Notes under the pieces: model-generated
Seen by the model: the letters and a program-made list of their open reading frames with translations, nothing else
The model's database searches: none
Told to the model about the DNA's origin: nothing
Shown here: in pieces, positions 22,637 through 48,707 of the stretch
How the letters are laid out: each line of letters begins with the position of its first letter
How positions within the stretch are numbered: the first letter of the stretch is position 1
From: Bryobacterales bacterium
GTDB lineage: Bacteria; Acidobacteriota; Terriglobia; Bryobacterales; Bryobacteraceae
DNA: 50,674 nt
Reading direction: 5' to 3'
Assembly: GCA_003167275.1 (NCBI GenBank)
Contig: PMTT01000317.1
Coordinates: forward strand, 1 to 50,674
Position numbers and translations under genes: made by a program

Positions 22637-24367
22637 TTAGTCAAGCTTCAGTAGGTTCCGGCTGACATATCTACTGGTGAATCTAGGGATCGGAAGATCA
22701 ACGCTGGCCGCGGACCCGCTCTTATGTGTAAATATATATGGAGGGCAAGGCCAGAAATCTTCCCGAACCACGCCAGTCCCCAAAAGTGGTCGATTGGTCT
22801 TGGGATCGATATCCCAGGAGGCATAGATAACAAAGTCTAGGAACCCTATCCTATCCAGCGGACTCGCAGAATCTATTTCCCAAACGGCAGTGGCACTCCC
22901 GTTGGTCAGAATTATCTCGCGCGCCTCTGTTCCATCTATCTGGTGAGGTGTGGGGTAAGCGGTCGAAGAGGCTTCTATCAGGTGGGCGTGGATCGTTGAC
23001 CGAGGCGTATGAGAGTAGCTCGTATAAAGTCTAACGCCCTCAGGAATGATATCGAAGTGTGCCGCGATGCGAGTGCCGTAATCGGCCGAGCCCGTTGACC
23101 GTACCTGGCCATTCACCATTTGAATGACCTGTCCAAATGCTGAGCTTTCACTAAGATACGCTTGGCCGATTTGTCTGCTAAAATCCGGTCCAACCAGGCC
23201 CCGAGTCTTGAAAGCGTGTGGGAAGCCTTCTTCGAAATGCAGGATACAAATCCTGGTCGGTGTTAGGCCTAATTTGTGGCTTCTGGTAAACTCTTTGAAG
23301 CCAACAGTCCCGTCCACATTCCTCGTCTCGAACCGGAGGCCTTGGCTCATAAACGCAATTGTCTGCACTGGTGTGTGGAAGCCGGCGACGCTAATATTAG
23401 CCATTACGCGAGCCTGCTCCTGTCCACTACCCAGTGCAGCGGCACAGCACCTGAGATTGCTAATCTGAAACGTTCGAGTCTCGCCGGGTTCAATGTTGTC
23501 CAACTCAATTTGGTCAAAACTGGCCATGTTGGCAATCACCTTTGACCGATAAAACCGTTTAGAACTGGGCCTTCCAACTTCAAATAGAACCATATCAGCA
23601 GTCACGGCACTTCCGGCGTCGAGCATAAGCCGCGATGTGATGTTTGTTCCGATCAGCACTCGAACACTGAACCACTGAGCGAATAGTGGAGGCGAATCTG
23701 GATTGCAAGTACATTTCAAGAATATTTCATCTACCAGTTCTGTCATCCCCTCGGAGCGGAGGTGAACCGGGACTGTGGTCACTTCAAACTGGAGCGGCGA
23801 TGATCCCATCAGAACGTTGGCTTCCGTTATTGGCGCAAGCACTCTTCGCAGATGGCTCCGAAGGTGTGTTGAGTAATCGTCAACATCGGAGAATGTCCAT
23901 AGCAGAGGAGCGTTGTTGCCCTGGGCTTCCAGTTCCGCTTTGAACGCTACTACGTTTGTATGTTGCTCCTTTTCTTGCAACGACGATAACACACCGGGAT
24001 TTTTCTTGAAATACAGCAGGACCTGCGGGCTGCGATGAAGTTGCCATAAACCGATAGCACGACGAACTTCGTATTCGGTTCCTGATCCAGCGCCCTTGAC
24101 TGGAGTACCGAACCTCTTACCAAAGATGCCGACGAGGATATCACCTTCTTCAATTTGCAGACATTCGTCAATGAGTCCCTGCGGTCCCTCAGCGTGCATC
24201 CCTGGGTGAGCATCAGTCTCCCAGCGCCAGAGCTCAACAATAAACGAGCGCCCCCAATCTCGTAGTTCGTGATTGATTTGATCGATAACTAGTGCTGTCG
24301 CATCACGTTCAGTTTGAACGTCGCCGGGTGAGGCTAATATCAACCTGATAATCTGCTTTGTTTCCAT
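22637..24367 (-). CDS. Orphan DUF4062-domain protein with beta-rich C-terminus
   Basis: A 576-residue protein. Residues 1-170 match DUF4062: RLILASPGDVQTERDATALV, then DILVGIFGKRFGTPV and GTEYEVRRAI. DUF4062 is a TIR-like/nucleotide-binding-fold domain often found N-terminal to STAND NTPases in bacterial conflict systems. Here no P-loop follows; instead the rest looks beta-rich, with an Ig-like stretch (VTADMVLFEV, GETRTFQISNL) and a second, lectin-like beta region (VWEIDSASPLDRIGFLDFVI). So it may be a stand-alone sensor or effector. GC is lower than in the flanking genes, which suggests transfer. No neighbouring gene is clearly linked to it. The DUF4062 call is good; the rest is my reading of composition. 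Confidence 0.75.
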   Translation of the reverse strand: METKQIIRLILASPGDVQTERDATALVIDQINHELRDWGRSFIVELWRWETDAHPGMHAEGPQGLIDECLQIEEGDILVGIFGKRFGTPVKGAGSGTEYEVRRAIGLWQLHRSPQVLLYFKKNPGVLSSLQEKEQHTNVVAFKAELEAQGNNAPLLWTFSDVDDYSTHLRSHLRRVLAPITEANVLMGSSPLQFEVTTVPVHLRSEGMTELVDEIFLKCTCNPDSPPLFAQWFSVRVLIGTNITSRLMLDAGSAVTADMVLFEVGRPSSKRFYRSKVIANMASFDQIELDNIEPGETRTFQISNLRCCAAALGSGQEQARVMANISVAGFHTPVQTIAFMSQGLRFETRNVDGTVGFKEFTRSHKLGLTPTRICILHFEEGFPHAFKTRGLVGPDFSRQIGQAYLSESSAFGQVIQMVNGQVRSTGSADYGTRIAAHFDIIPEGVRLYTSYSHTPRSTIHAHLIEASSTAYPTPHQIDGTEAREIILTNGSATAVWEIDSASPLDRIGFLDFVIYASWDIDPKTNRPLLGTGVVREDFWPCPPYIFTHKSGSAASVDLPIPRFTSRYVSRNLLKLD

Positions 24368-27356: not shown

Positions 27357-27529
27357 TGTCCACGGTTTCGCGACGCGGCTCACTGTGTTGGGCGCTTCGT
27401 TCCCCACCCACGTCCCGTTTGTGGCGCCGGGGCTGGCACGGGAGACCTCTGACTGAGTATCAACCGCTGGATCAGCAGCCACGATCCGCAAGCGAGCCCA
27501 TAGCTGTTGCCGCGAGCTACAATGCTCAT

Positions 27530-27660
27530 TCCATGCGCTCTTCGAGATCGGTCGCGACTACTACCGGCTTCAAGGCCAGCCCCTCACGCCGGCGAAGGAC
27601 CTCAGTGCGATACCGGCGAGAGAGTTCCTCGCTTATCACGCCGAGGTGAATTTCAGATAG
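27530..27660 (+). pseudogene. 3' remnant of an unknown gene just before mcrB
   Basis: In one frame the segment reads ALFEIGRDYYRLQGQPLTPA then KDLSAIPAREFLAYHAEVNF and a TAG at 27658-27660. It looks like the C-terminus of a real protein, but it has no usable start codon: the frame is open only from about 27455 after a TGA. It abuts the mcrB ribosome-binding site and may mark the left breakpoint of the inserted McrBC module. Confidence 0.4.
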
Positions 27661-27663
27661 GAC

Positions 27664-27668
27664 AGAGG
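27664..27668 (+). promoter_or_regulatory. Ribosome-binding site of mcrB
   Basis: AGAGG within ACAGAGGATCACA precedes ATG 27675 and supports that start over the longer frame from 27507. Confidence 0.6.
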
Positions 27669-27674
27669 ATCACA

Positions 27675-29612
27675 ATGGACGACGAAAGAGGGGTCCTGAT
27701 CGAAGGTCTCACGACCGAAGAAGATGCTGGCGAGGCTGACATCACGCCACCTGCTGGTCGCAGAACCTGGATTTTCCAGGCCAACCCGAAGCTCTTCAAC
27801 ATTGATGACGCCATCGCGCATCTTTCCGAGATGACGTGGTCGGTTTCCGCTCATAAGGAGCTGATCTCAACAGGCGACAGCGTGTTCCTATGGAAGAGCG
27901 GTCCTGAGGCAGGGGTTATCGGCGAGGCTACCGCTCTGGCAGCTCCGTCGGTGAGCGAAGAGTTAGGAAACGAGAACCAGTTTGCGCTCGACCAGGAAAA
28001 GTTCAGAGGTCTGCAGCTCCGCGTGCGACTGCGAATTGACGAGGTGTTCATGCCGTCATTGTCACGCGACACCATGAAAGCCGACGTGAGGCTGGCTGAG
28101 CTGTCCATCCTGAAATTCGCGCAGGGCACGAATTTCGTGGTCACGCCAGATCAGACCGCGGTAATTCGCGAGTTGCTGGAGATGCATCGTAGCGGCGAGG
28201 ACGAGATCCCGGGCGGGGCCGGGGCGATCGCGCCGGGTAGCGGCACCCGGGTTTGGGCCTACGCCCCAGGCCCCAAGGCCCAGTTCTGGGAAGAGTTCTA
28301 CCGAGAAGAGATCATGGCCATCGGCTGGGACGATCTTGGTGATCTCCGGCAATATCCAGACCACGATACGGTGGCAAAGAAACTCATCGACGTCTACCAG
28401 TTAAAGGGCTACCCGATTAACGACGCCCGTGCTTGTTTCAACTTTCTCCATGTCATGAGGCCCGGCGATAGGGTAATCGTGAAGAGGGGCCGTGATGAGG
28501 TTGTCGGATACGGCGTCATCACCGGCGAGTACGAGTACCGACCCGAAAGGCCGACCTATCGCAATGTGCGGCGGGTTCGCTGGGAGCGCCGAGGCAACTG
28601 GAAATGCAAGCCCGTGTTCGCCGTAAAGACTCTCACAGACTTTACCTCTTACCCGGACACAGTTCAGTACCTGACCGAGTTAATTGGGGTGTCGGAGGCG
28701 CCATCGGCAAGTTCCCCCGCGCCTACCCTCCCTCCATATTCAACTGAGGATGCCCTCAAAGGAGCGGCCTTTGACAAATCTGAGTTTGAGACCATTCTGG
28801 ACCTCTGGCGAGCTAAGAAGAACGTTATCATCCAAGGCCCGCCAGGCGTGGGCAAGACCTTCATGGCGCGCAGGCTGGCCTATGCATTGATTGGCCATGA
28901 ACTTCCCTCTCGCGTTGCCATGATCCAATTCCATCAGAGTTACTCCTACGAGGACTTCATTCAAGGCTACAGGCCCACTGAGAACGGCTTCGGTCGAAAG
29001 GATGGTGTTTTTGTCCGATTTTGCAAGCGGGCTTCCCTCGATCAAGACTTGCCCTACGTGTTCATTATTGATGAGATCAACCGGAGCAACCTGAGCAAGG
29101 TCTTCGGCGAGTTGCTCATGCTGATCGAATCGGACAAGCGGGGCAGCAAATACTCGGTGGCCCTGACGTACTCCGCGTCGGAGGAAGAGCAGTTCTATGT
29201 GCCGTCCAACGTGTATCTTCTCGGCATGATGAATACCGCCGACAGATCACTCGCACTGGTCGATTACGCGCTTCGTCGTCGCTTTGCGTTCCTGGAACTG
29301 AAGCCCTTGTTCGGATCCAACGCGTTCATCGATTATCTGGTCGGCGCCGGTTCCGTTGCGTCCTTTGCCGGGGCAGTTTCGACGCGGTTGCAGGCGCTGA
29401 ACCAGGCGATCGCAGAAGATCAAAACTTTGGTGCTGGTTTCATGATCGGGCACAGCTACTTCTGCGGGACTGGGGTGGCCCTCACTGAAAAGGTGTATAT
29501 GGACGCCATTCGCCATGAAATCCTTCCACTCCTCACGGAGTACTGGTTCGATGATCCGGAGCGCGTGGCGCACTGGAAGGACAGATTGGCCGCGAACTTC
29601 GAGCCAGCGTGA
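27675..29612 (+). CDS. mcrB: McrB-like GTPase with N-terminal EVE modules
   Basis: A 645-residue AAA+ protein of the McrB branch, the motor subunit of a Type IV restriction system that cuts modified DNA. The N-terminus is an EVE (PUA-like) module: RTWIFQANPKLFNIDDAIAH, TGDSVFLWKSGPEAGVIG (about 28-160). A second PUA-like stretch follows (about 190-310: TRVWAYAPGPKAQFWEEFYR, PGDRVIVKRGRDEVVGYGVI). Both probably read the modified base. The motor carries GPPGVGKT (388-395), VFIIDEINRSN (462-472), the McrB signature MNTADRS (519-525) and the arginine finger region LRRRF. Its stop overlaps the mcrC start (TGATG), so the two are translationally coupled. EVE-McrB fusions are known; two successive modules are less usual. 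Confidence 0.93.
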   Translation: MDDERGVLIEGLTTEEDAGEADITPPAGRRTWIFQANPKLFNIDDAIAHLSEMTWSVSAHKELISTGDSVFLWKSGPEAGVIGEATALAAPSVSEELGNENQFALDQEKFRGLQLRVRLRIDEVFMPSLSRDTMKADVRLAELSILKFAQGTNFVVTPDQTAVIRELLEMHRSGEDEIPGGAGAIAPGSGTRVWAYAPGPKAQFWEEFYREEIMAIGWDDLGDLRQYPDHDTVAKKLIDVYQLKGYPINDARACFNFLHVMRPGDRVIVKRGRDEVVGYGVITGEYEYRPERPTYRNVRRVRWERRGNWKCKPVFAVKTLTDFTSYPDTVQYLTELIGVSEAPSASSPAPTLPPYSTEDALKGAAFDKSEFETILDLWRAKKNVIIQGPPGVGKTFMARRLAYALIGHELPSRVAMIQFHQSYSYEDFIQGYRPTENGFGRKDGVFVRFCKRASLDQDLPYVFIIDEINRSNLSKVFGELLMLIESDKRGSKYSVALTYSASEEEQFYVPSNVYLLGMMNTADRSLALVDYALRRRFAFLELKPLFGSNAFIDYLVGAGSVASFAGAVSTRLQALNQAIAEDQNFGAGFMIGHSYFCGTGVALTEKVYMDAIRHEILPLLTEYWFDDPERVAHWKDRLAANFEPA

Positions 29613-30715
29613 TGGGAATCCCGGTTGCCAACATCTACTATTTGCTTTGCTACGCCTGGGATGAATTTGCACCTCGCCAGATGGCTAATGTCGCCGCGGA
29701 AGAGTTCCCTGACACGCTGCATTTGTTTTCCCACCTCTTGCTCATCGGGCTCCTAGCGTTACACCGCCGCGGACTGGAAACCGGCTACATCCCGATTGAG
29801 GAGCCGACCAGCACAGTACGTGGCCGTATTCTGATCGGGCCGACAATCCGGCTCCTTACCGCGCAGCCTACAAAAGTTCACTGTGCGTTCGATGAAATGA
29901 GCGCCGATGTCTTGAGCAATCAGATCCTGAAGGCGACCTTGATGATGCTCGTGGCGGAGCAGGGGCTCGACCGTCAGCTCCGCGCAGAGCTACGCCATGC
30001 TCTGGTCCTATTGCCCGGCGTGCGCGACATCGAACTGAATGCCAGGGCGTTCCATCAAGTACGCCTGCACCAAAACAACCGTTTGTACTTGTTCCTGATC
30101 AGCATCTGTCGGTTTTTCTACGAATCCCTGGAAGCGCAGGACCGGCTTGGGCAGTACCGGTTTCGAGATGTGGATCGCGATGAGAAACGTATGCGGCGGG
30201 TGTTTGAGAAATTCGTCCGCAATTTTTTCTCCCGTCGTCAACGGGTGTTCGGCGTAAGAAAGGAACGGCTCAACTGGCTCGCCTCGGCAATAGGGGACTC
30301 CGATTTGAAGTGGCTGCCGCAGATGGAGACGGACGTGACACTGCGCTCGGCGGATCGGACCATCATCATCGAATGCAAGTACACCGAGTCGCTGTTCCAG
30401 AACCGGTTCTTTTCCGAAAGACTTCGCTCGGCCCACCTATATCAGCTTTGTGCGTATTTGCGAAATCTGGAAGGCGGTGCGGAACCGGATCGGCAGGCTG
30501 ATGGAATTCTGCTGTACCCAACCGCTGGCGCCGAGCTTGACCAGTCCTACTGGCTCCACGGGCACCGAGTCCGTATCAAAACCGTCGATCTAAACCAACC
30601 AACCCTGGACTCTCATCGAGAAAGCGCTGCTGTCGATTCTCCAACCCATTCCCGCGGGATGAGGGTTGCGTTTGCCGGCATTGTTGGCGAATCATGCCCG
30701 TATGAAATCATGTAG
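29612..30715 (+). CDS. mcrC: McrC-like endonuclease subunit
   Basis: A 367-residue McrC protein, the nuclease partner of McrB. The N-terminal half is the typical McrC scaffold: NIYYLLCYAWDEFAPRQMAN, STVRGRILIGPTIRLL and CAFDEMSADVLSNQILKATL. The PD-(D/E)XK site is near the C-terminus: QMETDVTL (D241) and TIIIECKYT (E254, K256), followed by RSAHLYQLCAYL. ATG 29612 overlaps the mcrB stop by one base; a GTG three bases earlier is possible. McrC binds the McrB hexamer and cuts when GTP-driven translocation stalls. A third gene follows after 11 bp. Confidence 0.92.
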   Translation: MGIPVANIYYLLCYAWDEFAPRQMANVAAEEFPDTLHLFSHLLLIGLLALHRRGLETGYIPIEEPTSTVRGRILIGPTIRLLTAQPTKVHCAFDEMSADVLSNQILKATLMMLVAEQGLDRQLRAELRHALVLLPGVRDIELNARAFHQVRLHQNNRLYLFLISICRFFYESLEAQDRLGQYRFRDVDRDEKRMRRVFEKFVRNFFSRRQRVFGVRKERLNWLASAIGDSDLKWLPQMETDVTLRSADRTIIIECKYTESLFQNRFFSERLRSAHLYQLCAYLRNLEGGAEPDRQADGILLYPTAGAELDQSYWLHGHRVRIKTVDLNQPTLDSHRESAAVDSPTHSRGMRVAFAGIVGESCPYEIM

Positions 30716-34582: not shown

Positions 34583-36340
34583 TCAGAACGGCTCATCGTA
34601 GAAGGTCCAATCAGCGGGACGAGGGATCCTGTCCGAGCAGGAGTCACAGAATCTTGTCTTGAATTCCCGGTCGATGTTATCAAGCTCCCGACCACCCAAA
34701 GCATACCTATGCTGATCACAGAAGATGATCTTGGGATTCGCCCTCTCCAGTGCGAGTCGATCCAGCATAGGATCGCCGCCCGGATGCTTCATGACCACCT
34801 TATGCTGGCAATCGATCAGCACGCGCGTCGGATCGTCGTCCTTTATGGCTAGCTCGATATAGCTCGCCCAAGGTTCCGTCGTCGGATCGATGCCGGCGGA
34901 AGTGAGGATATTGTTATGGATCTGCCGGCGAGTCGTTTCGATGTCCCCGTCGAATTTTGCTCCGTTCTTCCGGGCCACCGCGCGATCCATAAGTTCCTCG
35001 GCGTTCTTTCGATACGGACTATCTTCCGGCCATTGCTCGATAACCGACCGTACCCACTTGAACATCTCTCCGCCGGTGTCCCGCTCAAGCGTTCTCGCAT
35101 GCATCACGGCATTGAACAGCTCATCCATGGATTCATTCTCGGTCGCGATGGCCGCAGAGAACTTCAGAAGGCTGAAGGCGGACTGGACATACTGAAGTCC
35201 CGCGTCCTGGAAGCCGCAACGATCCAGAAGATGGGCAAGCGTACCAATCGCAATTGCAATTTCCGCGATCGGCCGGGATGTCACCCAACGGAAGCGGGAT
35301 TTTGCCGTGGCTTGCGCGAGCCTGAGCGACTGATTGTATCTCCGGTGGGCAACGAGTAAGCTCTGCTGGAGTTGAAACGAAAGTACTGCCAGCCAGACGG
35401 GATCATCGCCCCTCATCATGTGGGCGCGCCAGCTCATCAGCAGCCCGAACGTCTTATGAACCGCCACTCCAAGCTCGGCCGCCTTGCGGGTTATCTGCGC
35501 AAAGAGGTGAAGGTGTTTTGGGTCGCGCTTCGCTATCCGGCACAGTTCCAGCGCTGTCGCGAGTTTCTTGTCCGCGACTCGCGCCTGGGGTACGTCGGAT
35601 TTCGTCATTTGGACCCATTCCAGTTCGCCCGCCTGAAAGATCGCGTTGAAATGAACCTCAACATAACCTGCCGCGCTCGCGCGGACTGCCACTTTGGTAA
35701 TCGCATCTATGGCCCCGGCAATATCACCGCCCTTCCGCTGGAGGAACGCGGCCTGCAGTTCGAGGTGGAAGCCCTTTTCGTGGAGATCTTCAGCCACCTC
35801 GCTGATTCGCTCAATGGGCTGCGATGCCATAGCATCGACGAACTCGATGGGCTTGGTCCCCAGCAGTATGCGGCTTACAACAACCACTTGCGCCTTCATC
35901 AAATCCCGCAAAAAACTTTCGAATTGGTCCGGAAGGATGTTTGCCGTCGGAATCCGAACCGTCAGGCTTTTCGTCCGCCCCGGCGCTAAGGCCTCCAGAA
36001 CTTTCTGATCAAGCTGGATAGCGCTCCAGAACAGCTTCTTGGCCTCTACGTCGGCGTGAAAAAGGAATGTTGGTTGTCGGAGTTGGCGGGCGAGATAGTC
36101 TGCAGAGTCCAGCTCCAATTCCTGTGATATGAACGTGCCGTCCGCAGAATACGCCGTTTGCCGCGAGCCTTTGAGCTGGCCGTTAAAGAGGAAACCGGTG
36201 CTCTCACCGTTGCGGAACACCTCTACAACGTGGTCCCACCCGTAATCGCGCTTGCTCCCGTTTACCGACCACTCGGCAAATACGGCTTGGAAGATCGCGT
36301 CCGCTTGGCTGTCGGTGATGTGTTGTTCTGGCCGTTTCAC
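34583..36340 (-). CDS. DUF4365-domain nuclease-like protein with helical body
   Basis: A protein of about 585 residues. The N-terminal 120 residues are DUF4365: ITDSQADAIFQAVFAEW, KRDYGWDHVVEVF and FNGQLKGS, where D42, E46 and Q61-x-K63 (numbered from the TTG at 36358) fit a PD-(D/E)XK-like site. Then a long alpha-helical repeat body (TPR-like) covers about 170-520. The C-terminus has CDQHRYALGG with a later CDSCSDRIPRP, a likely zinc-binding knuckle. DUF4365 domains occur in bacterial conflict systems. A TAA lies immediately upstream of the frame; TTG 36358, TTG 36349 or GTG 36340 (MKRPEQHIT) are the possible starts, and I chose 36340. The next gene on the same strand is the STAND NTPase, 1 kb further up. 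Confidence 0.8.
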   Translation of the reverse strand: MKRPEQHITDSQADAIFQAVFAEWSVNGSKRDYGWDHVVEVFRNGESTGFLFNGQLKGSRQTAYSADGTFISQELELDSADYLARQLRQPTFLFHADVEAKKLFWSAIQLDQKVLEALAPGRTKSLTVRIPTANILPDQFESFLRDLMKAQVVVVSRILLGTKPIEFVDAMASQPIERISEVAEDLHEKGFHLELQAAFLQRKGGDIAGAIDAITKVAVRASAAGYVEVHFNAIFQAGELEWVQMTKSDVPQARVADKKLATALELCRIAKRDPKHLHLFAQITRKAAELGVAVHKTFGLLMSWRAHMMRGDDPVWLAVLSFQLQQSLLVAHRRYNQSLRLAQATAKSRFRWVTSRPIAEIAIAIGTLAHLLDRCGFQDAGLQYVQSAFSLLKFSAAIATENESMDELFNAVMHARTLERDTGGEMFKWVRSVIEQWPEDSPYRKNAEELMDRAVARKNGAKFDGDIETTRRQIHNNILTSAGIDPTTEPWASYIELAIKDDDPTRVLIDCQHKVVMKHPGGDPMLDRLALERANPKIIFCDQHRYALGGRELDNIDREFKTRFCDSCSDRIPRPADWTFYDEPF

Positions 36341-36358
36341 AGCAACCAATCTGCTCAA

Positions 36359-37397: not shown

Positions 37398-40300
37398 TCA
37401 GCGTAAGCTGGCGTTTAGAACAAAGGCCCTGAGATGACGGCTGGAGTTGGAAAGGAACGCCGCCTGTTTATCAAGTGTTTGTTGAGCCTCAATGAGCGAC
37501 GCGCACCTCCGAGTCTTGCTGCGCGGATCCTTCGTATCCCACTGCGGGCACGCGAACCACCCGACGAGATATAAGCCATGGCCGAAACCCGTTTCTCGAA
37601 GATACCGTCCCGCGAGCTGGGCATGCATCGCGGTTTTCAAGTCGGGGTTCCAGACGCCTTTTACCTCGATGATTACCGTTACCTTAACCCAAATATCAGG
37701 TTCCGAAGTTGGAACTGCGACAGTGACATGAATATCGGTCCGCTCTCCCGGCGCCCCGCCCATGGGACGACGAATCTCCACCTCACGGTTGATGACCACA
37801 GCCCTATCTTTCAGGTCCCGATCGAGATGTCGTTTGACATAATCCGAGAGAAACGCCTCATCTTTGGGTCTAAAAATCGGCCGCTTCTTACCACTGTCTG
37901 GGTCCACAAAAGGCTCGACATCGCTCCATAGTTCAGCGGCTGCCGGAGTTTCGCCTTGAAAGGATTCTTGAAGCCGTCCCAAAGACTCCACCAGTACATC
38001 AAGAAGATCGGACCCGTTCCGAATAAACCGTGCTGCCGCGCTCGAAATACTTCGAAGGAGATCGGCCGGCGCAAACGGAATCCATGTGTTGCGGCGCGCG
38101 AGTTCCTCGGCAGTCTTCAAATGCCAAGGCACCTCGGCCAACAGCGGGCGGGATTGTGCAATTTGGCGCAGCGCAATGCAAGCCTCTGGCGTGGCGCGAT
38201 AGGCGAGGCCCCGAAGAATCATGCTCACGGCTAGTGGGATCTCCCCCTTCTGATCCTCCTCGTTTTGGTTTTCGTCCTGATCGTGCTTCCCGACGACGAA
38301 ATGGAGACGAGAAGGATAGAGCCAAAGAAAGAATTCGGCCACGTCTTCGGCATCCAGTTTCAGCAGGAACTCGAAACTTCGGAACGGGTCGATCGACTGA
38401 AGGCCGGCGAGCGCCGACCTGGCAAAATCGTCGTCCGCCTGAAAGACGGGCCAGACTATGTTCCAGCCTGCGTCCGAAGTGTGCGCGATCAGCTCAATGG
38501 CCGTGCCGAGCGTCTGTTCCTGCATCCGTTCGAAATGGGTCTGCGCTCGCTGGAGTAAACCTTGGGCCCATTTGCGCGTGGCGGCGTCCTCTCGATCCAA
38601 CAGTTTGGCCAACAGGTGCCGGTAGGCCGTCGGTTTGAGGCGCCCGCGCTGCAACCGGCTTCGGAGAAGGTCGGCGATCGCAGAATTCCAGAAGCTGTCG
38701 AGGTGGTGCAGCACCAGCAGTCCCGCACGATCATTTTCGCCGTCGATGATTTCATCAAGGGTTTTCAAGAAATTAGCCGGGGACTGTTGGTAGGCTGTCT
38801 CCACAATCCGAGACTCTGGATTAGGCAGCCCGGACGAGGACCATTCCAGGACCACAATCGGAACCCACCGCTCCCAAGTCTCCTGATCGAGCTGCCTAAA
38901 CTGAGACGGAGCTTCTTTTTCGATCAACGTGAGAGCGCTGTGGGCTGCAAGGGCGTAGTAGGGGAACTGTCCGTCTCGCCACCAGTGTCGATCGTGTCGA
39001 TCGGATCCGAACGTCGTGCGAGTCAGATAAGTCTCGGCCGATGCCAGCACTTGACTACGTGTTAGCTTATCGAGTTTGCCCCAGCCAGGAAGCGGTTCCG
39101 CATCGGAACGCTCGCCGGAAATCTGGCCGAGGGTCAACTCCCAAACCGAGAAAAACGTGTTCGGTTCTGGGGCCTTCAGTGCAGTTTGGAAGGCCGCTTT
39201 GTCAGGGGGCCCCGACGGTTCGCTCTTTTCGGTTTCATATTGCCGGTGGATCAGAAAGAAGGTGTTCTTTTCCCGCTCCGCTTCCGGACTCCCTAGCGTC
39301 CTAACCGCAATGAAAGGAGAAAGTTCTCTGGAAAGGACGGCATTTCGCACGGCCGTGCGCAGTATCGCGTCAAACGTGTCTACCGCCTCAGGGTCTAGAC
39401 AGCGCACAATGACGAACGCAAGGCACTTCTGAATGTTCTCGTTCGTTGAGTCCAGTTCACCTAAAAGCCACGGAACATCGATCGGCCGAAGAGATACGGC
39501 ATCCATTAGGATCAAGGCCCCATGAAGATGGACCGAAATGAAGGGGTACAAGGCCCTAGCGAGACGCTGGCGGCGCGCTTCGGATGCCAAAAGCTGAGTG
39601 GCGAATTCGGGTATATCTAAGGAGTAGTTCCAGTACGACACCAGAGCCCTGGCCAAAGCCGCAATGACTTCCGGGGTTCCAATCTCCTGGAGCGCTCGCC
39701 CCAAAATATTGGACGCGATCTCTCTGAGGGGCTCAGATTCACGTGAAGGCCCAACGGTCTCAGCCCACCGGAGCGCAGCAGGAAGATCTTCGCTCTGGAC
39801 GGCCGCACCAGGGTCGGACTTCAAGAAGTGCCAATAGCTTCCTAATAAGGTCCGCCGTTTCCGAGGCGTCAAAACCGAGAACAGTTCCGCTCCCGTCAGG
39901 TGATCGGGCCAAACAGCCTGAAGACCGTAGCCCTTCAGCTCGTCGTCTGGGTCATCCCCGGACAAGCCAAGAACAAGCGGCCTAAGGGCTGCTCGGGCCT
40001 GAGAATCGCCGCTCCGCGCGACCGCTCCGGCCGCCGCTCTACGCACAAGAGGCGGCTGGCTAGGGTCCAGGGCGATGTTAACGAGATCAGAATGGGGTGC
40101 CTGTAAGTTGCAGGCGTCCGCTATGCACACGGCTGCATGTCTCGCGAATAGATTGTGGGCCGTGTCGCGAAGGTACGGGCTCAGGACCGCATGAAGTTCT
40201 GGAGAATTCAAGCGTGCGTATAGTGGCCGTAGTTCCCGGTCATCGAGGAGCTGAGCGGTATCAAAAGAAAGCAAGAGCTTCTCGGCAAGTTCTGCGCGCT

Positions 40301-41615
40301 CAGCGTCCGACGTAGACGTGAGATCGCTTCGCAGCAACGTTTCCGGGTCGGTCTTGATCAATTCCCGGAAGACGTCTGGCTGTAGGCTGGCGAGCCAAGC
40401 TCCGGTCTCGCGCAACTGCGGAATCACCTTCCCCGAACCGTCGGGATGGAAAAGGAAGCTCAACGCCTTTTTGGAGGGCAATTTCGATTCATGGATATGG
40501 CGAGCTGCCAGAAATTCGGCATACGATTGATGGCTCCATCCCAAGCGCTCTGGGCCGCGCGAGTTGAATAGCCCAGTATCGAGCGTTTCTAGGAGTGCCT
40601 CTCGGGTGACCGTCGTAAGCGTGGCATCCGCCCCTTCACGACCGCCGACAAGCTCGTCCGTCGCCACATCTTCAGGCGGCTTACCGCGGTACAAACCGTT
40701 CCAGATTGCGTACCTGTTGCAGAACATGGTGACCGCCGCGATACGGCCGGCCACGGTGAGGCGCTGCGACGGCGTCAAGTCCCCAAGCGCCCCAGCGTCG
40801 CGGCGACTCTCGCTCGCTTCCTCGGCCAAGCAGCGGCACCCTTCCAAATAGAGAGCCGCCCTGCCCCTCGGAAGGGATTGGCTCTTGGCGTAAATATCCA
40901 TGAGAAATCGAAGCGTGACCGGCCTATTCGCCAAGGGCGCAATCCCGGCCGAGCGAATCGCCCCGAGAAATTTGGCGGGATCGATTCCGGCAGTACTCGC
41001 AGCCAAGATCACGTCCTTCTTGCGAAGGGGCACGAGTTCAAAAACCCCCACCCTGCCCGGGCCCCATTTCTCCCGCAACGTTGCCTCAAGACCAGCCGGC
41101 CAATCGGCCGTCCGACAGGCGATCCGCAGCCGTAGTCGTCCGGCATCCAGCTCGCGGATTTCCGCCCGCAGCACCCGGGAAATGTTGTCGATGCGGAGCT
41201 GACACTCATCCAAACTGTCCAAGAAGAGGTGCAACAAGCCTTCACCGCATTTCCAGCGTTCTATGGTTGGCGAATTAAACACCTTAGCGGCCAGATGGTG
41301 GTCAGTCGAAAACTCACGAAGGTCGGCCCGAACGAGACAATCCCGAGTGCCCGCCACGCGACGCTGCATCGCCTCCCACTCCTGTTCCAGAGTCGTCGAC
41401 TTGCCGCTTCCAGGCTCCCCTAGGTGCACCAAACAATGATAATGATATTGCTCCATGGCCTCAAAAGAAGCCACGTGCTTGGCGTAATGACGGCCCCACT
41501 CTGAATCTGGATCAACCAAGAATCCTTCGTCCTCCAGAGAATAGTGACCGTCGCGCGAGCACCAATAACGCTTCCAGTCGTAAAGAGGCTTTGCCATGCG
41601 TAAATCGCTCGCCAT
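37398..41615 (-). CDS. STAND/NACHT-like NTPase with C-terminal PD-(D/E)XK-like domain
   Basis: A 1405-residue protein. A P-loop at LGEPGSGKST (65-74) and a Walker B-like LLHLFLDSLDEC (127-137) define a NACHT-type NTPase. RIACRTADWP and LGWSHQSYAEFLAARHI are typical post-Walker and winged-helix motifs of NACHT proteins. The middle 900 residues are helical repeats, the usual sensor part. The C-terminus has TDIHVTVAV (D1294) and VTVIIEVKGVWN (E1317, K1319), then GLYLVGWFACPQW, a PD-(D/E)XK nuclease-like layout with the effector unusually at the C-terminus. It would act as a triggered nuclease in phage defence. ATG 41615 is used; the Met at codon 7 is possible. The DUF4365 gene lies downstream on the same strand, with an SDR remnant on the opposite strand between them. 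Confidence 0.82.
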   Translation of the reverse strand: MASDLRMAKPLYDWKRYWCSRDGHYSLEDEGFLVDPDSEWGRHYAKHVASFEAMEQYHYHCLVHLGEPGSGKSTTLEQEWEAMQRRVAGTRDCLVRADLREFSTDHHLAAKVFNSPTIERWKCGEGLLHLFLDSLDECQLRIDNISRVLRAEIRELDAGRLRLRIACRTADWPAGLEATLREKWGPGRVGVFELVPLRKKDVILAASTAGIDPAKFLGAIRSAGIAPLANRPVTLRFLMDIYAKSQSLPRGRAALYLEGCRCLAEEASESRRDAGALGDLTPSQRLTVAGRIAAVTMFCNRYAIWNGLYRGKPPEDVATDELVGGREGADATLTTVTREALLETLDTGLFNSRGPERLGWSHQSYAEFLAARHIHESKLPSKKALSFLFHPDGSGKVIPQLRETGAWLASLQPDVFRELIKTDPETLLRSDLTSTSDAERAELAEKLLLSFDTAQLLDDRELRPLYARLNSPELHAVLSPYLRDTAHNLFARHAAVCIADACNLQAPHSDLVNIALDPSQPPLVRRAAAGAVARSGDSQARAALRPLVLGLSGDDPDDELKGYGLQAVWPDHLTGAELFSVLTPRKRRTLLGSYWHFLKSDPGAAVQSEDLPAALRWAETVGPSRESEPLREIASNILGRALQEIGTPEVIAALARALVSYWNYSLDIPEFATQLLASEARRQRLARALYPFISVHLHGALILMDAVSLRPIDVPWLLGELDSTNENIQKCLAFVIVRCLDPEAVDTFDAILRTAVRNAVLSRELSPFIAVRTLGSPEAEREKNTFFLIHRQYETEKSEPSGPPDKAAFQTALKAPEPNTFFSVWELTLGQISGERSDAEPLPGWGKLDKLTRSQVLASAETYLTRTTFGSDRHDRHWWRDGQFPYYALAAHSALTLIEKEAPSQFRQLDQETWERWVPIVVLEWSSSGLPNPESRIVETAYQQSPANFLKTLDEIIDGENDRAGLLVLHHLDSFWNSAIADLLRSRLQRGRLKPTAYRHLLAKLLDREDAATRKWAQGLLQRAQTHFERMQEQTLGTAIELIAHTSDAGWNIVWPVFQADDDFARSALAGLQSIDPFRSFEFLLKLDAEDVAEFFLWLYPSRLHFVVGKHDQDENQNEEDQKGEIPLAVSMILRGLAYRATPEACIALRQIAQSRPLLAEVPWHLKTAEELARRNTWIPFAPADLLRSISSAAARFIRNGSDLLDVLVESLGRLQESFQGETPAAAELWSDVEPFVDPDSGKKRPIFRPKDEAFLSDYVKRHLDRDLKDRAVVINREVEIRRPMGGAPGERTDIHVTVAVPTSEPDIWVKVTVIIEVKGVWNPDLKTAMHAQLAGRYLRETGFGHGLYLVGWFACPQWDTKDPRSKTRRCASLIEAQQTLDKQAAFLSNSSRHLRAFVLNASLR

Positions 41616-43120: not shown

Positions 43121-43999
43121 TCATCCGCGCCAAAGGCGCGTCACAGAGCTGCCTGGCAGGCGAAGCGGTGTGCCAGCCAGGCCTGAACGGGCGCAACCTA
43201 CACCAGCCGACCGTGGTGGCTGGATCACTTTTGGCGAGCAAAGTAGGGTCATTTCTCGCGAGTGCCGAAGAGCATCCATCATAACAGCTTGCGCACCGCG
43301 CATATATATCAAAAAGTCAGCCGGAGTACCGATCGACACCCCCATGGAAGTGGAGTATCCGCGCACTTCGTCATAGGATTCACGGATCTGACGGTCCACC
43401 TCGTTACAGCCAGGGACAGGTGCGCCCCCGCAGTGCTGGAAGACCATCCCCGCCATGAAGCGCGATCCATGTACAAGCTCGTGCGCGAAAGTGATGTCCA
43501 AGTCGGGGCGATCCCAGAAAACGAAGATTTCCACATCGGGAGAACAAGCGTATAACGTATCGGGTTCTAAGTGCGTCGTGGGCGGCACCAGTGTCTGCCC
43601 CAGGGCATCCGAGTCCACGTAGTTTGGCGAAAACGGCACCAATTGCGCGTGGGTGGTGTCAAATAATAGGGTGCACAGCGGCCGAGAGTCGGAGATCGTC
43701 AGCCGCATGCTTCGGCCGTTATTGACGATGTCCACGAGGCGCCGGAAGTTCGGCGATGGAATCGGCGCTGGCGAAATAAGAACCTGAACACAAAACCAAA
43801 CGCCTTCGCGACCGGCCGCTCCCGTCCCGATGCGGCGCGCGCCGTCAATCGGCACCCCCGCCCTTAAGGCGGTGAGGCCACGCGCGAGTTGGGTTTTATC
43901 GAACGAACAAACGTCCAGCTTGGCGTATAGCTGCTGCGTCCCTGGGAGTGCGACCAAGACCGCTCCAACCGCACAAAGTCCACGTAAAGAATTCATCAT
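43121..43999 (-). CDS. Secreted putative zinc metallopeptidase (HELVH)
   Basis: A protein of about 292 residues with a signal peptide (LCAVGAVLVALPGTQQLYA) and a metal-binding motif HELVHG in ITFAHELVHGSRFMAG (about 190-205), flanked by acidic residues (RPDLDITF). A later Glu region in DEVRGYSTSMG could give the third ligand. HELxH placed so resembles the M91 (NleD) effector peptidases and other gluzincin-like secreted enzymes, but the overall family is not clear. The last 40 residues (Pro/Arg/Gly-rich) look unlike the rest and may be an artificial read-through. ATG 43999 follows a GGGGGG tract; the frame opens at 44008 with TTG. It is divergent from the XRE-HD-eIF2B-like gene. Confidence 0.62.
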   Translation of the reverse strand: MMNSLRGLCAVGAVLVALPGTQQLYAKLDVCSFDKTQLARGLTALRAGVPIDGARRIGTGAAGREGVWFCVQVLISPAPIPSPNFRRLVDIVNNGRSMRLTISDSRPLCTLLFDTTHAQLVPFSPNYVDSDALGQTLVPPTTHLEPDTLYACSPDVEIFVFWDRPDLDITFAHELVHGSRFMAGMVFQHCGGAPVPGCNEVDRQIRESYDEVRGYSTSMGVSIGTPADFLIYMRGAQAVMMDALRHSREMTLLCSPKVIQPPRSAGVGCARSGLAGTPLRLPGSSVTRLWRG

Positions 44000-44146
44000 C
44001 CCCCCCAAGCGATTCTCATTGGATTAGAAGCCGCGCAGGCTTTCTGTGTTCCAAACTGAACCGTTGCCTGACAACGGAATGGCGTCGCGATAACCAGTGA
44101 TGTTACGGTGATCAGGTGCAATCAAATGTTCAACTTACTATTGGAA

Positions 44147-44226
44147 TTGTCTATTGCTCATTGTTTGTCTAGGTTCACTTGCTGACATTGACCAAGCATT
44201 GCTTATCGTGGTAGGTTGGTAGACAA
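44147..44226 (+). promoter_or_regulatory. Candidate operator: three TTGTCTA sites
   Basis: TTGTCTA lies at 44147-44153 and 44165-44171 (direct, 18 bp apart) and in inverted form at 44220-44226, just before the ribosome-binding site of the XRE-type gene. A weak promoter, TTGACC (44188-44193) and TAGGTT (44212-44217), sits between them with an 18-bp spacer. The layout suits autoregulation by the HTH protein and control of the divergent secreted protease. Confidence 0.5.
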
Positions 44227-44235: not shown

Positions 44236-46479
44236 ATGTTCATGGATTCAACAGTCGCCGCCCAGATCGATGAATGGCGAGAGCAACGAAATTGGAGTCG
44301 CAACGAGCTCGCAAAGCGCGCAGGCATAGATCCCGGATACCTTAGCCGGATCCTTCGTGGGAAACGGCCGAGCGAGGTGGTCCTCCGCAAGATTGCCAAG
44401 CCCTTGCAGTTGACTGAAGAGCAGTCGGGGCTGTTGCTTGCTGCTGCCGGATATGCTGTGCCGACCGTGGCCGAAATTTTGCCAAACGACCAGCGGGCCA
44501 CTATCGAAGCCGCAATTCGCCGAATTCCTGGCTTGACCGTCGAATTTCGTAGTCGTCTCGCTGTTCAACTCGTTTCTGTCGCCACCGCAACCGAAGCGCT
44601 TTGGCACAAAGCCCACGATCTCGGCGACCCCATTCCGCATGTCCCCGAGCACGGCCCAGAGCATAGCCTCGCTATGCTCTCGCGCCTGGTCGAGTTCTTT
44701 CCCGAAGGCTTGGCCCGGCTCGCGAGGCGTAGAGAGATCAGCCTTGCGCTCCTGCTCCAATCGTTGTGGCTGCACGACGTCGGAATTGCGGCCCACGCAG
44801 GGGCGGATTCCGCGACCCATCGCGGTGAGCAACGCAAAAAGGACCTCTATTCGGATTACCGAACATACCCGAAGAGATCCGAGAATTACGTTCGCGAGCT
44901 TCATTTGGAACTCGGCCTATCGAAAGAAGACGCGCGTGTATTGGAGAATCTGTGCAAGCACCATCGCGAGTCGGAGAACCTCAGCGCAGTTGCGATAGAG
45001 GAAGGCAACGGCGTTATACCAGCTCGCGAGCAGAAGGTCCTGATAGCATTGTTGCGCATTGCCGATCTGCTGGACGTCCGCCCCGAACGCGTTGCCACCA
45101 AGCAGAAACTGGACGAAGTCATGGCCAACTGGCAGGTTATGCTGGAGGTTCGCGGGGAATGGTTGCGTAATCTATTCATCGCGCGCTTGCGCCGGGAGCG
45201 ATCCACGCTGGTCGCCGAGATCCGATATGATCGCGGCTGGGGCCAAGACAGCATAAACACCCTGCTGGAGGCGGTCGTTCGGGAACTGCAAGGCCAGATC
45301 AACCTAGTGAAAGACATCCTCGTCGACGAGCCCGACTGCATACTCCTCAACGTGCGCACGGATGTCAGCCCCGACCCGTTGCCCACCGAACTGAAAAGCG
45401 CTATGGAGAAAGTTCGACGCAGCCTGGGGCGCTATCCGAGCGCGCGCCACTTTATGGACCGTGTCTTGGATAGCCTCGATCGTCTGCTCAAGTTTGGCAA
45501 GTACGATGATGTCCGAGATTATGTCGAGCGCGAACTCAGGGCCAGCATCGGCCTGCGGCCCTATCACGTTCAGGTGCAGAACCTGTGCGACGACCTCGTG
45601 CAGATCCTCAAAGGCGACTATTCCGAGGAGAAGCAGCTGCGCGTTATCGAGCAGGTCTCCCTCGTCTACCGGAATCACAAGGAGAAGGCGTTTGCCGAGA
45701 TCGCCGCAGCAGCAAAAAGAGAATTTTGCGACCCTAATGCCAGCTTTCTGTTGTTCGGTTATAGCGAATGCGTCCTTAAGGGGTTGGGCGCGATCGAACA
45801 GTCCGTCCGAAGATCAGTCGATGTTACGATCTTGGAGTTCCGTGCCAAGTCGCTCTATGACTCTGATTTTAGGCTCCAGTACTGCGACGGTGCTAATTTC
45901 GCACTGGAGGTCCGACGCCTGGGATACGAAAGGATTTGGTTGGCACCTGACGCTTCGGTTACTGCCATCTTCACATTGCCCCAACGTCTCGCCAGCCACG
46001 CAAGCCCGGGTTCGCTGCCGAGACGCCCCACCCACCTGATCGTCGGTGTCAACGCCATCACTCCGGACGATCCGAGGCGGTTATCGGAAGAGGCTGAGGA
46101 CACCGCCACGGTGCGCGAACCCGCTTATGGCGCTTACAGCACGACGGGCTACCGGACCATCATTGAGATGGCCAAGAAGTACAAGGCGCACGTTTATGTG
46201 CTGGCTGAGTCCGCCAAGATTCGGCACGGGGTCGAAGAGACCGCAAAGGAGCGCGTCCACTGCTGGTTGGCGCAGGATGAACGTTGGGCCGAGCTAATGC
46301 GCGACGGAATCCGCATCTTTAGCCCTCTCGATGACCAGATCGATTCACACGACATCTCCTGGTTCATTACGGACCTCGGTCGGGACAATCCCGCAGACCT
46401 TAGAAGAAAGCACCCCGCAAGTTTCAGCGCTCTGCCGACAGCGTTGCATGCGGCTGATGGACTCACCCGGGCGGGTTAG
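44236..46479 (+). CDS. XRE HTH - HD phosphohydrolase-like - eIF2B/R15P isomerase-like fusion
   Basis: A 747-residue three-domain protein. Residues 8-65 are an XRE-type helix-turn-helix: ELAKRAGIDPGYLSRILRG. Residues 115-330 form an HD-type metal phosphohydrolase-like domain: HGPEHS (H139, H143), WLHDVG (H180, D181), KHHRES (H242, H243) and IADLLDVRPER (D277). Residues 500-720 match the eIF2B/MtnA/ribose-1,5-bisphosphate isomerase fold: FLLFGYSECVLKGL, VDVTILEFRAKSLYD, HLIVGVNAITPDD, GYRTIIEMAKKYKAHVYVLA then ESAKI, and a final DSHDISWFITDLG. The HD domain may cleave a nucleotide; the eIF2B-like part may bind or convert a phosphorylated ribose or nucleotide. Transcription control by the HTH is likely. 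I know of no described system with this layout. Starts 44236 or 44242. Confidence 0.82.
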   Translation: MFMDSTVAAQIDEWREQRNWSRNELAKRAGIDPGYLSRILRGKRPSEVVLRKIAKPLQLTEEQSGLLLAAAGYAVPTVAEILPNDQRATIEAAIRRIPGLTVEFRSRLAVQLVSVATATEALWHKAHDLGDPIPHVPEHGPEHSLAMLSRLVEFFPEGLARLARRREISLALLLQSLWLHDVGIAAHAGADSATHRGEQRKKDLYSDYRTYPKRSENYVRELHLELGLSKEDARVLENLCKHHRESENLSAVAIEEGNGVIPAREQKVLIALLRIADLLDVRPERVATKQKLDEVMANWQVMLEVRGEWLRNLFIARLRRERSTLVAEIRYDRGWGQDSINTLLEAVVRELQGQINLVKDILVDEPDCILLNVRTDVSPDPLPTELKSAMEKVRRSLGRYPSARHFMDRVLDSLDRLLKFGKYDDVRDYVERELRASIGLRPYHVQVQNLCDDLVQILKGDYSEEKQLRVIEQVSLVYRNHKEKAFAEIAAAAKREFCDPNASFLLFGYSECVLKGLGAIEQSVRRSVDVTILEFRAKSLYDSDFRLQYCDGANFALEVRRLGYERIWLAPDASVTAIFTLPQRLASHASPGSLPRRPTHLIVGVNAITPDDPRRLSEEAEDTATVREPAYGAYSTTGYRTIIEMAKKYKAHVYVLAESAKIRHGVEETAKERVHCWLAQDERWAELMRDGIRIFSPLDDQIDSHDISWFITDLGRDNPADLRRKHPASFSALPTALHAADGLTRAG

Positions 46480-46684
46480 GTCATTTGGAAGGATCTGGCA
46501 ATCTATCGGCCAACCCAACTCAACCCCAGTCACTTCGCGGGCACGGTAGCCGGAGCCCCCTTCTCCTTCACGAAAAACACCAGGAACTTGGCCGGCTTCG
46601 TGCTGCTGGCCTTCCTCGGACCCGTCAACGACTACTTGGGAACCGCCCTGTGGTTTACCAGCCGCTTGTGCCACACTTGCCGAT

Positions 46685-48199
46685 ATGATCCACCGCATCG
46701 CACCCATCCTGCTTGCGTGGCTCTGTGCCTTCAGCCAGTCCGCTTGGTATGACCAGCCGTACCGCCCCCAATACCACTTCTCACCCCGCCAGAATTGGAC
46801 GAACGACCCCAACGGACTTGTTTATTTCGATAGCGAGTACCATCTTTTCTACCAGTACAACCCGTTTGGCGATGTCTGGGGCCACATGAGTTGGGGGCAC
46901 GCGGTTAGCCGTGACCTGGTGCACTGGCAGGAACTCCCGGTCGCGTTGCCGGAGGAGAACGGTGTCATGATCTTCACCGGCAGCACGGTCGTGGACACCC
47001 ATAACACCAGCGGCTTCTGCACGGGCAGCAAGCCGTGCATGGTGGCGGTCTACACTGGCCACACCCCACAAACTCCGGTGCACGCCGCTCTTCAAACGCA
47101 GAATCTGGCGTATAGCAACGACCACGGACGGACCTGGACCAAGTACTCGGGCAATCCCGTACTGGACCTCCACCTGTCGGACTTCCGCGATCCCCATGTC
47201 TTTTGGTCGGACCAGGGTCGGCGGTGGGTGATGGCCGTTGCATTGCCCAATGACCACAAGGTGCTGTTCTACGGTTCGCCCGACCTCAGAGCCTGGGAGC
47301 GGCTGAGCGAGTTTGGACCAGCCGGGGCCATGGGTGGCCAATGGGAATGTCCGACGTTGACGGAGGTTCCGGTGATGGGCGGCCGGCGCGACACTCGGTG
47401 GGTGCTCAAGGTGGGGTTGAACCCCGGCGGCCTGCAAGGTGGATCGGGCGAGCAGTATTTCGTCGGGAGCTTCGACGGCACGCGGTTCACGAACGACAAT
47501 CCGCCCTCGACGACACTCTGGACCGACTATGGGAAAGACTGCTACTGTGCCCTGACGTTCAACGGGATGCCGCGCACACAAGTGCCCGTCATGATGGGCT
47601 GGATGAACAACTGGCAGTACGCGGCGAAGGTTCCGACACAGCCCTGGCGTGGACAGATGACCATCCCTAGGAGGCTGCAACTACGGAAGGGGCCGGAGGG
47701 CCTGCGACTCGTACAGGAGCCCATTGAGACGGTCCAGGCGCTGCGCGGCGTGCACTTCACGTGGAGCGGGGTAAACATTCCCGATCTTAACCGAGCACTG
47801 ATGGAGAAAATCCGAGGCCAGAGCTTTGAACTGTCGAGCACCGTGTTAGGCACCACCGGGGAAGTCGGGTGGAGACTGCTGGCTGGCGATGGGAAGTTCA
47901 CGACGGTGGGATACGCTAACGGGGAGGTGTTCGTGGATCGCACGCAGTCTGGCGAAACAGGCTTCAGCAAGGACTTTCCGGCTCGCACCTCGGCTCCGCT
48001 CGTGGTCGGCAATGCGCCCCTGAAACTCACGATCCTCGTGGACCGATCCACTGTGGAGGTTTTCGCGATGGACGGCCTGGTAGCCATGACCAACCTCGTC
48101 TACCAACCGGCCCCAGCGAAGGGCATGGAGTTCTATGCGGTCGGAAAACCAGGGCGGATCACGGTCGAGGGATGGGAATTGAAGTCGGCGTTGAAGTGA
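46685..48199 (+). CDS. Secreted GH32 fructan hydrolase (levanase/inulinase-like)
   Basis: A 504-residue glycoside hydrolase family 32 enzyme that cuts beta-fructans (levan, inulin) or sucrose. A signal peptide (IAPILLAWLCAFSQSA) indicates export. Catalytic motifs are WTNDPNG (nucleophile D41), FRDP (D169, transition-state stabiliser) and WECP (acid/base E221). The five-bladed propeller is followed by the C-terminal beta-sandwich (about 355-504: RSTVEVFAMDGLVAMTNLVY). The length is normal. The organism probably degrades plant or microbial fructans. It sits alone, downstream of the XRE-type gene with a 205-bp gap that shows no gene, and ahead of the minus-strand DUF4268 gene. Confidence 0.95.
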   Translation: MIHRIAPILLAWLCAFSQSAWYDQPYRPQYHFSPRQNWTNDPNGLVYFDSEYHLFYQYNPFGDVWGHMSWGHAVSRDLVHWQELPVALPEENGVMIFTGSTVVDTHNTSGFCTGSKPCMVAVYTGHTPQTPVHAALQTQNLAYSNDHGRTWTKYSGNPVLDLHLSDFRDPHVFWSDQGRRWVMAVALPNDHKVLFYGSPDLRAWERLSEFGPAGAMGGQWECPTLTEVPVMGGRRDTRWVLKVGLNPGGLQGGSGEQYFVGSFDGTRFTNDNPPSTTLWTDYGKDCYCALTFNGMPRTQVPVMMGWMNNWQYAAKVPTQPWRGQMTIPRRLQLRKGPEGLRLVQEPIETVQALRGVHFTWSGVNIPDLNRALMEKIRGQSFELSSTVLGTTGEVGWRLLAGDGKFTTVGYANGEVFVDRTQSGETGFSKDFPARTSAPLVVGNAPLKLTILVDRSTVEVFAMDGLVAMTNLVYQPAPAKGMEFYAVGKPGRITVEGWELKSALK

Positions 48200-48221: not shown

Positions 48222-48707
48222 TCACGGACAGGTGCCCACGAACGGCTTGAATGCTCCGACGAATCTATTGAGGCGTGTTGCCAACAACTTCTGCTGCCGT
48301 GTCCAGTCCGCTATGTTCTTCGGGTCCGCATTACACGAGACACCCACGCTCCAAGTCCCGTCTTTGCATTCCCACCATGGCGGCTCTTTAAGCTGCGCTA
48401 CGATGGCTCGGCGTTTCCTGACGAGTTTTGGATAGTAATCTGGGTGGCCCCGGACAAACACGCCGATGCGTCCGAGCGAAGAGGCGGCGTACACGGTAAT
48501 CCAAAGATCGCGGCTTTGAAGATTGAATCGGAGGTTCCCGAGTGAGTTAGCTTTTGGAAGGTTGACGTCTGGATCGTCGAGCCGCAGACCCGCGATGAAC
48601 GTCTTCCAGTATTCGAGGCGCCTCACCGCAGACTCAATTCGTTCCCCCTCGATCCGTCTAGCTGATTTGGTAAAACAAGCGTTTTCTCTCTTTCGGTCCA
48701 GCGACAA
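48222..48707 (-). CDS. DUF4268-domain protein (possibly truncated)
   Basis: A frame of 161 codons from a TTG. The core is DUF4268: LEYWKTFIAGLRLDDPDVNL, LRFNLQSRDLWITVYAASSL, GRIGVFVRGHPDYYPKL and GTWSVGVSCNADPKNIADWT then RQQKLLATRLNRFVGAF. Such domains are often attached to or next to restriction-type nucleases. No nuclease part is present in this frame, and the N-terminus (residues 1-30, basic) is not protein-family-like, so it may be the 3' part of a longer gene. It converges with the GH32 gene with a 22-bp gap. Confidence 0.65.
   Translation of the reverse strand: MSLDRKRENACFTKSARRIEGERIESAVRRLEYWKTFIAGLRLDDPDVNLPKANSLGNLRFNLQSRDLWITVYAASSLGRIGVFVRGHPDYYPKLVRKRRAIVAQLKEPPWWECKDGTWSVGVSCNADPKNIADWTRQQKLLATRLNRFVGAFKPFVGTCP

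Follow-up and report, generated by a model that had tools for sequence, protein, structure and literature searches.

Within the window, by which we mean the entire 50,674-nucleotide stretch of DNA analyzed here, from a soil bacterium of the Bryobacterales, one gene (P0001) was confirmed as a real open reading frame that joins an XRE HTH, an HD-CE module and an eIF2B-family domain in a single polypeptide chain. The result is an unusual HTH-HD-eIF2B fusion that looks like a new pairing of sensor and effector modules, known from this single gene. With confidence a little short of even, we favor a reading in which P0001 is a stand-alone, single-gene conflict protein whose eIF2B-fold sensor would gate the HD-CE effector and whose HTH would autoregulate expression. 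The conflict role would probably lie in anti-phage defense or stress.

Domains and HD metal site of the fusion protein

Features of the gene start and of the first two domains are as follows.

44182..44209, + strand: promoter-like hexamers CTGACA-16-TATCGT upstream of P0001
44227..44233, + strand: ribosome-binding site GGGAGGA, directly 5' of the P0001 ATG (sequence)
44236..46479, + strand: 747-aa fusion ORF P0001, uninterrupted from ATG to stop
44272..44418, + strand: XRE/Cro-C1 type HTH (HTH_3), residues 13-61 (Pfam E 3.4e-13)
44521..45375, + strand: HD-CE module, residues about 96-380 (Pfam and alignment)
44647..44667, + strand: EHGPEHS (138-144), first metal-ligand motif with H139 and H143 (alignment)
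44767..44784, + strand: WLHDVG (178-183), HD doublet H180-D181 (alignment)
44956..44973, + strand: KHHRES (241-246), probable further metal ligand (role inferred from HD superfamily)
45049..45075, + strand: LLRIADLLD (272-280), with R274 and D277 invariant in HD-CE (alignment)

Base-shuffled versions of the P0001 sequence had on average 133 open codons and never more than 274, compared with 747 in the real gene. Third-position GC (GC3) is similar across the three parts of the gene (0.63, 0.69 and 0.69), thus giving no sign of chimeric assembly. Upstream, three promoter-like sites were found versus 1.1 expected by chance. The only candidate operator was the palindrome AAGCATTGCTT at 44194-44204, which lies within the promoter-like spacer; palindromes here occur at chance level (P 0.14), and an autoregulatory operator was dropped as a candidate.

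An earlier sequence-only reading proposed three domains in one 747-residue chain, and Pfam matches to HTH_3 and HD-CE, together with Pfam IF-2B and hhalign results for the C-terminus, bore this out. The HD-CE family (PF24391) matches residues 134-286 with an E-value of 1.2e-11 and 45.3 bits, above the gathering score of 27 bits. The metal-site set listed in that reading (HGPEHS, WLHDVG, KHHRES and IADLLD) was likewise recovered, with motifs at 138-144, 178-183, 241-246 and 272-280. An alignment of P0001 with six HD-CE proteins, taken from elsewhere in the phylum, has eight invariant columns, and P0001 keeps every one (H139, H143, L179, H180, D181, R274, D277 and R285). As every invariant HD-CE residue is present, the HD metal site is intact. 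H242/H243 likely supply a further metal ligand, judging from the HD superfamily at large.

Among the six relatives in the phylum, HD-CE is joined to an HSP90-like ATPase in two (L013 and L015) and to a CARF domain (Cas_APE2256) in a third (L012). On this evidence HD-CE is a reusable module that is paired with varying regulatory domains. A PADLOC CARF-HD model (CARF7--CARF_HD) also matches the P0001 HD domain (E 9.8e-6). No HD-CE protein with assayed activity was found in the open-access papers searched. An identity as Ppx/GppA was dropped: the HD similarity is weak (E 0.036) and the Ppx N-terminal domain is unmatched.

The eIF2B-like C-terminal domain

Features of the C-terminal domain are given below.

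45397..46410, + strand: divergent eIF2B/MtnA/R15Pi-family domain, residues about 388-725 (Pfam, hhalign and alignment)
45757..45768, + strand: G508-Y509-S510-E511, where the isomerases have their catalytic Cys (now Gly) and eIF2B-alpha has A129/Y130/R132 (alignment)
46042..46059, + strand: VGVNAI (603-608), with N606 instead of the catalytic Asp / eIF2B-alpha E198 (alignment)
46138..46158, + strand: STTGYRT (635-641), replacing NKxGT, with S635 instead of eIF2B-alpha N208 (alignment)
46195..46221, + strand: YVLAESAKI (654-662), with K661 kept, equivalent to phosphate-binding K234 of eIF2B-alpha (alignment)

The assignment of the C-terminus as a divergent eIF2B/MtnA/R15P-isomerase-family domain with insertions is well supported by sequence comparison, and the claim rests on the Pfam and hhalign results. 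When the C-terminus was isolated (residues 381-747 plus one residue), IF-2B (PF01008) was the only Pfam family to match (E 8.6e-5, 22.3 bits); on the full-length protein the same family scored 19.6 bits (E 6e-4), and both scores fall below the gathering score of 22.4, the former by a narrow margin. The hhalign profiles drew on eIF2B-like and MtnA sequences from related genomes, and then also on the archaeal structures 1vb5, 3a11 and 5yfj. With rising profile diversity the score climbed from 22.9 to 26.8 to 31.9, values reached by 1 of 400, 0 of 400 and 0 of 300 shuffles, respectively (best shuffle scores 22.9, 23.7 and 22.8). The match scoring 31.9 spans 226 columns, and MAFFT alignment places the family motifs in order: RP (440-441), FLLFGYSECVL (504-514), APDASV (570-575), LIVGVNAI (601-608), STTGYRT (635-641), YVLAESAKI (654-662) and finally QIDSHDISWFITDLGRDNP (701-719), which corresponds to the family motif FDxTPxxxxxxxxTExG. 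The eIF2B-family assignment proposed from sequence alone therefore stands, given the sole Pfam match, the co-linear motifs and the absence of any equal among 300 shuffles. A narrow hmmsearch profile scored the C-terminus near zero bits, not above the best shuffles, because insertions break the local match. A phmmer search returned no PDB match for this region, and a single-sequence AlphaFold2 model of the C-terminus alone had a pLDDT of 36, too low for use.

Compared with the eIF2B/MtnA/ribose-1,5-bisphosphate isomerase family, P0001 is co-linear from the RP motif to a C-terminal ITDLG, but it has lost both catalytic residues (Cys and Asp) as well as the NK in NKxGT, carries about 50 extra residues in insertions, and is fused to HTH and HD domains. 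In the alignment the isomerase catalytic Cys (of THC) and Asp (of GAD) are replaced by Gly508 and Asn606. In human eIF2B-alpha, a pocket that binds sugar phosphates and drives assembly contacts the sugar of F6P through G196, A129, Y130, E198 and N208, and the phosphate through R132 and K234 (PMC8187479). Three of these seven pocket residues have kept equivalents in P0001 (Y130 as Y509, G196 as G604 and K234 as K661), whereas the other four are replaced (A129 by G508, R132 by E511, E198 by N606 and N208 by S635). The sequence-only reading had the C-terminal part handling or converting a sugar phosphate, a proposal that these substitutions at catalytic and pocket positions do not support. With the catalytic residues gone, the sequence, as far as it can tell, excludes an active sugar-phosphate isomerase. 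Because both isomerase catalytic residues and E198, N208 and R132 of the eIF2B-alpha pocket are lost, the C-terminus is better regarded as a sensor or an oligomerization domain than as an enzyme; a sensor of some other ligand or an oligomerization domain remains as its predicted role. No ligand can be named, since E198, N208 and R132, by which sugar-phosphate binding is defined, are replaced.

In eIF2B-beta and delta, which have lost E198 and N208, no ligand was seen (PMC8187479). By analogy, the eIF2B-like domain of P0001 may only build an oligomer, and the trigger would then be recognized by another part of the protein, such as an HTH that binds foreign DNA, or the HD domain itself. We consider this explanation unlikely. 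It fits the loss of residues equivalent to R132, E198 and N208, of which E198 and N208 are also missing from the beta and delta subunits that bind no ligand (PMC8187479), but sits poorly with the retention of Y509, G604 and K661 at the pocket positions Y130, G196 and K234.

Distribution and genomic surroundings

Searches of 100 relatives, of 257 genomes from the order and of 396 from the phylum (overlapping sets) did not find P0001; the matches listed for it were HTH parts or, in one of the sets, a CARF-HD protein. No HTH-HD-eIF2B orthologue was found in another class. No second copy of the architecture turned up when genome and viral collections were scanned by pattern; the cross-phylum scan, of low sensitivity, relied on one pattern (YV[LV]AE[ST]..K) that returned 16 stretches, and it counts as a weak negative. 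Consistent with the sequence-only reading, whose author knew of no such system, the HTH-HD-eIF2B order is undescribed in Pfam, NCBIfam, PADLOC and the open-access papers searched. Given one known copy and the limited sensitivity of the cross-phylum scans, we rate P0001 as a variant of HD-CE conflict proteins and not as a new class. Since the searches gave no homologue of the same architecture, co-conservation of the three domains, or of the gene with defense loci, is not demonstrable.

The region around P0001 is defense-rich, as the sequence-only reading had also held. The window contains a type IV restriction pair, an EVE-domain McrB with McrC (27507-30715, +), and a 1405-aa NACHT/STAND protein (37398-41615, -) that resembles EruA over residues 59-1384, with NCBIfam matches to antiphage EruA (E 3e-72) and HyoA (E 2e-39) that are both below cut-offs (the EruA model being an equivalog). 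It also contains a DUF4062 protein (22637-24367, -) matching PADLOC PDC-S60 (E 1e-25), and two possible defense genes near P0001: a DUF4365 protein (34583-36358, -) and a DUF4268-like protein (48222-48707, -; PADLOC PDC-S11, E 1e-8). P0001 lies 2.6 kb from the EruA-like NACHT gene and less than 22 kb from the McrBC, DUF4062 and DUF4365 genes. Its GC3 of 0.683 resembles that of the McrB, McrC, EruA-like and DUF4365 genes (0.64-0.68), whereas GH32, tricorn and OMP genes have values of 0.75-0.78. DUF4062 has been reported as a TIR-like NADase in defense, such NADases being described as Swarozyc (PMC13174449). In the DUF4062 protein of the window, GTEYEVRRA may hold the catalytic Glu of TIR-like NADases, and the C-terminus of the EruA-like protein (ERTDIHV...VIIEVKG) looks like a PD-(D/E)xK nuclease.

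The immediate neighbors of P0001 are a GH32 glycosidase, a TonB-C protein and an HExxH protein, and they do not form a defense operon. The gene upstream is divergent, and GH32 is conserved and found elsewhere without P0001, so P0001 has no evident operon partners. The divergent gene (43121-44008, -) encodes a protein with an HExxH motif (FAHELVHGSRFMAG) and without a Pfam match; nearly absent from relatives, it is perhaps a secreted zincin metallopeptidase, judging by the motif.

The GH32 gene lies 206 bp downstream of P0001 on the same strand, and it could be the target of a metabolic regulator. In such a scheme the eIF2B-like domain would sense a phosphorylated sugar (for example F6P, in the pathway of a GH32 levanase/invertase), the HTH would regulate GH32, and the HD domain would be structural or would modulate a signal nucleotide. 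The binding of F6P by the eIF2B-alpha pocket and the DeoR design of an HTH plus an ISOCOT sensor agree with this scheme. Many relatives, however, have GH32 orthologues without P0001, and a congener aligns only at the GH32 gene of the window (46666-48197); its own GH32 (79% identical) sits in a different context, synteny ending just upstream of GH32. Moreover, P0001 and GH32 genes differ in GC3, the key sugar-contact residues are replaced, and the HD site, from a conflict family, is fully intact. Regulation of sugar metabolism by P0001 is thus improbable in our judgment.

The region is variable, and the window also contains an IS91-like transposase and part of a resolvase. Together with the XRE HTH, these features would suit a phage-derived or mobile-element regulator, that is, a repressor with accessory domains and no defense function. 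This reading seems very unlikely, as no match to P0001 was found among phages and plasmids (tblastn) or viral contigs. The tblastn hits that phages and plasmids gave to the C-terminus were to ABC transporter genes only, with E-values of 1 or worse, and were taken as chance. P0001 is an accessory gene that stands alone, without direct operon partners, in a region both variable and defense-rich.

Proposed mechanism and related systems

From the domains and their setting we infer an effector role for the HD module, sensing by the eIF2B-like domain, autoregulation, and a function in defense. As the effector, the HD-CE module would be a metal-dependent nuclease or phosphohydrolase that is inactive in the resting protein. 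The eIF2B-family (ISOCOT-fold) domain, which is catalytically dead, would sense a small phosphorylated metabolite, a nucleotide or a partner and would set the oligomeric state of the protein, a change of state switching the HD site on. The XRE HTH would keep the gene repressed and couple its expression to the same state, comparable with DeoR regulators. This conflict-protein reading draws support from HD-CE membership with all invariant residues and from the fusion of HD-CE to other regulatory domains elsewhere; from a C-terminus of the eIF2B family that lacks both catalytic residues; from ligand binding by the eIF2B-alpha pocket and the DeoR ISOCOT fold; and from the nearby defense genes, their shared GC3, the end of synteny with the congener just upstream of GH32 and the absence of the gene from the relatives searched. 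It is weakened by the failure to find a homologue of like architecture, by the replaced pocket residues, by the GH32, TonB-C and HExxH proteins that directly flank P0001, and by the lack of an assayed HD-CE protein in the papers searched. Somewhat doubtful is a new kind of sensor-effector immune switch in which the eIF2B-fold domain would detect a phosphorylated metabolite or nucleotide as an infection signal and activate HD-CE, acting as a nuclease or as a nucleotide hydrolase, while the HTH would control expression of its own gene.

P0001 belongs to the same HD family as the HD-CE (PF24391) conflict proteins, scoring above the curated cut-off and keeping the residues invariant in seven sequences. 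The HD-CE proteins examined have HSP90-like ATPase, CARF or other partners, and none combines an XRE HTH with an eIF2B-like domain. In type III CRISPR, the ancillary CARF-HD proteins resemble P0001 in joining a Rossmann-like ligand sensor and an HD effector in one chain, and the CARF-HD protein L012 has the HD domain closest to that of P0001 among the matches listed (40% over 60 aa). Their sensor, however, is an N-terminal CARF domain, whereas that of P0001 is eIF2B-like, C-terminal and accompanied by an HTH. Pfam and PADLOC gave no CARF match in P0001, no Cas gene was matched among the window genes scanned, and no CRISPR was found in the window. DeoR-family regulators likewise combine an HTH with an ISOCOT-fold ligand sensor in one chain (PMC3924224), but they pair a DeoR HTH with the DeoRC subfamily, whereas P0001 pairs an XRE HTH with an eIF2B domain and has an HD enzyme module between them. 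By analogy, and tentatively, P0001 may work as CARF-HD proteins do, with a sensor and an HD domain, and as DeoR regulators do, with an HTH and an ISOCOT sensor, while being a member of neither.

HD-CE domains are modular parts of conflict proteins, with partners that include an HSP90-like ATPase and CARF; in P0001 the partner is instead a domain of the eIF2B/isomerase family in degenerate form. The same fold serves sugar-phosphate sensing in eukaryotic translation control (the integrated stress response) and acts as the ligand sensor in DeoR repressors. If the eIF2B-like domain gates the HD effector, a metabolite-sensing route would be added to bacterial immunity, and HD-CE chemistry and bacterial eIF2B-like sensing would both be testable in one soluble protein.

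A PF01008 protein was present in 55 of 61 genomes searched. The genome that carries P0001 (G000; 11.5 Mb, 957 contigs) yielded no PF01008 match over threshold and hence no MtnA, which may reflect an assembly gap. Short bacterial eIF2B-like proteins of about 230-280 aa (L077, L079, L081 and L082) were observed in the same order as the P0001 host. In these proteins the NK of NKxGT has become HK, and GID or GVD replaces GAD; by sequence, they look like an undescribed eIF2B-like subfamily in the order.
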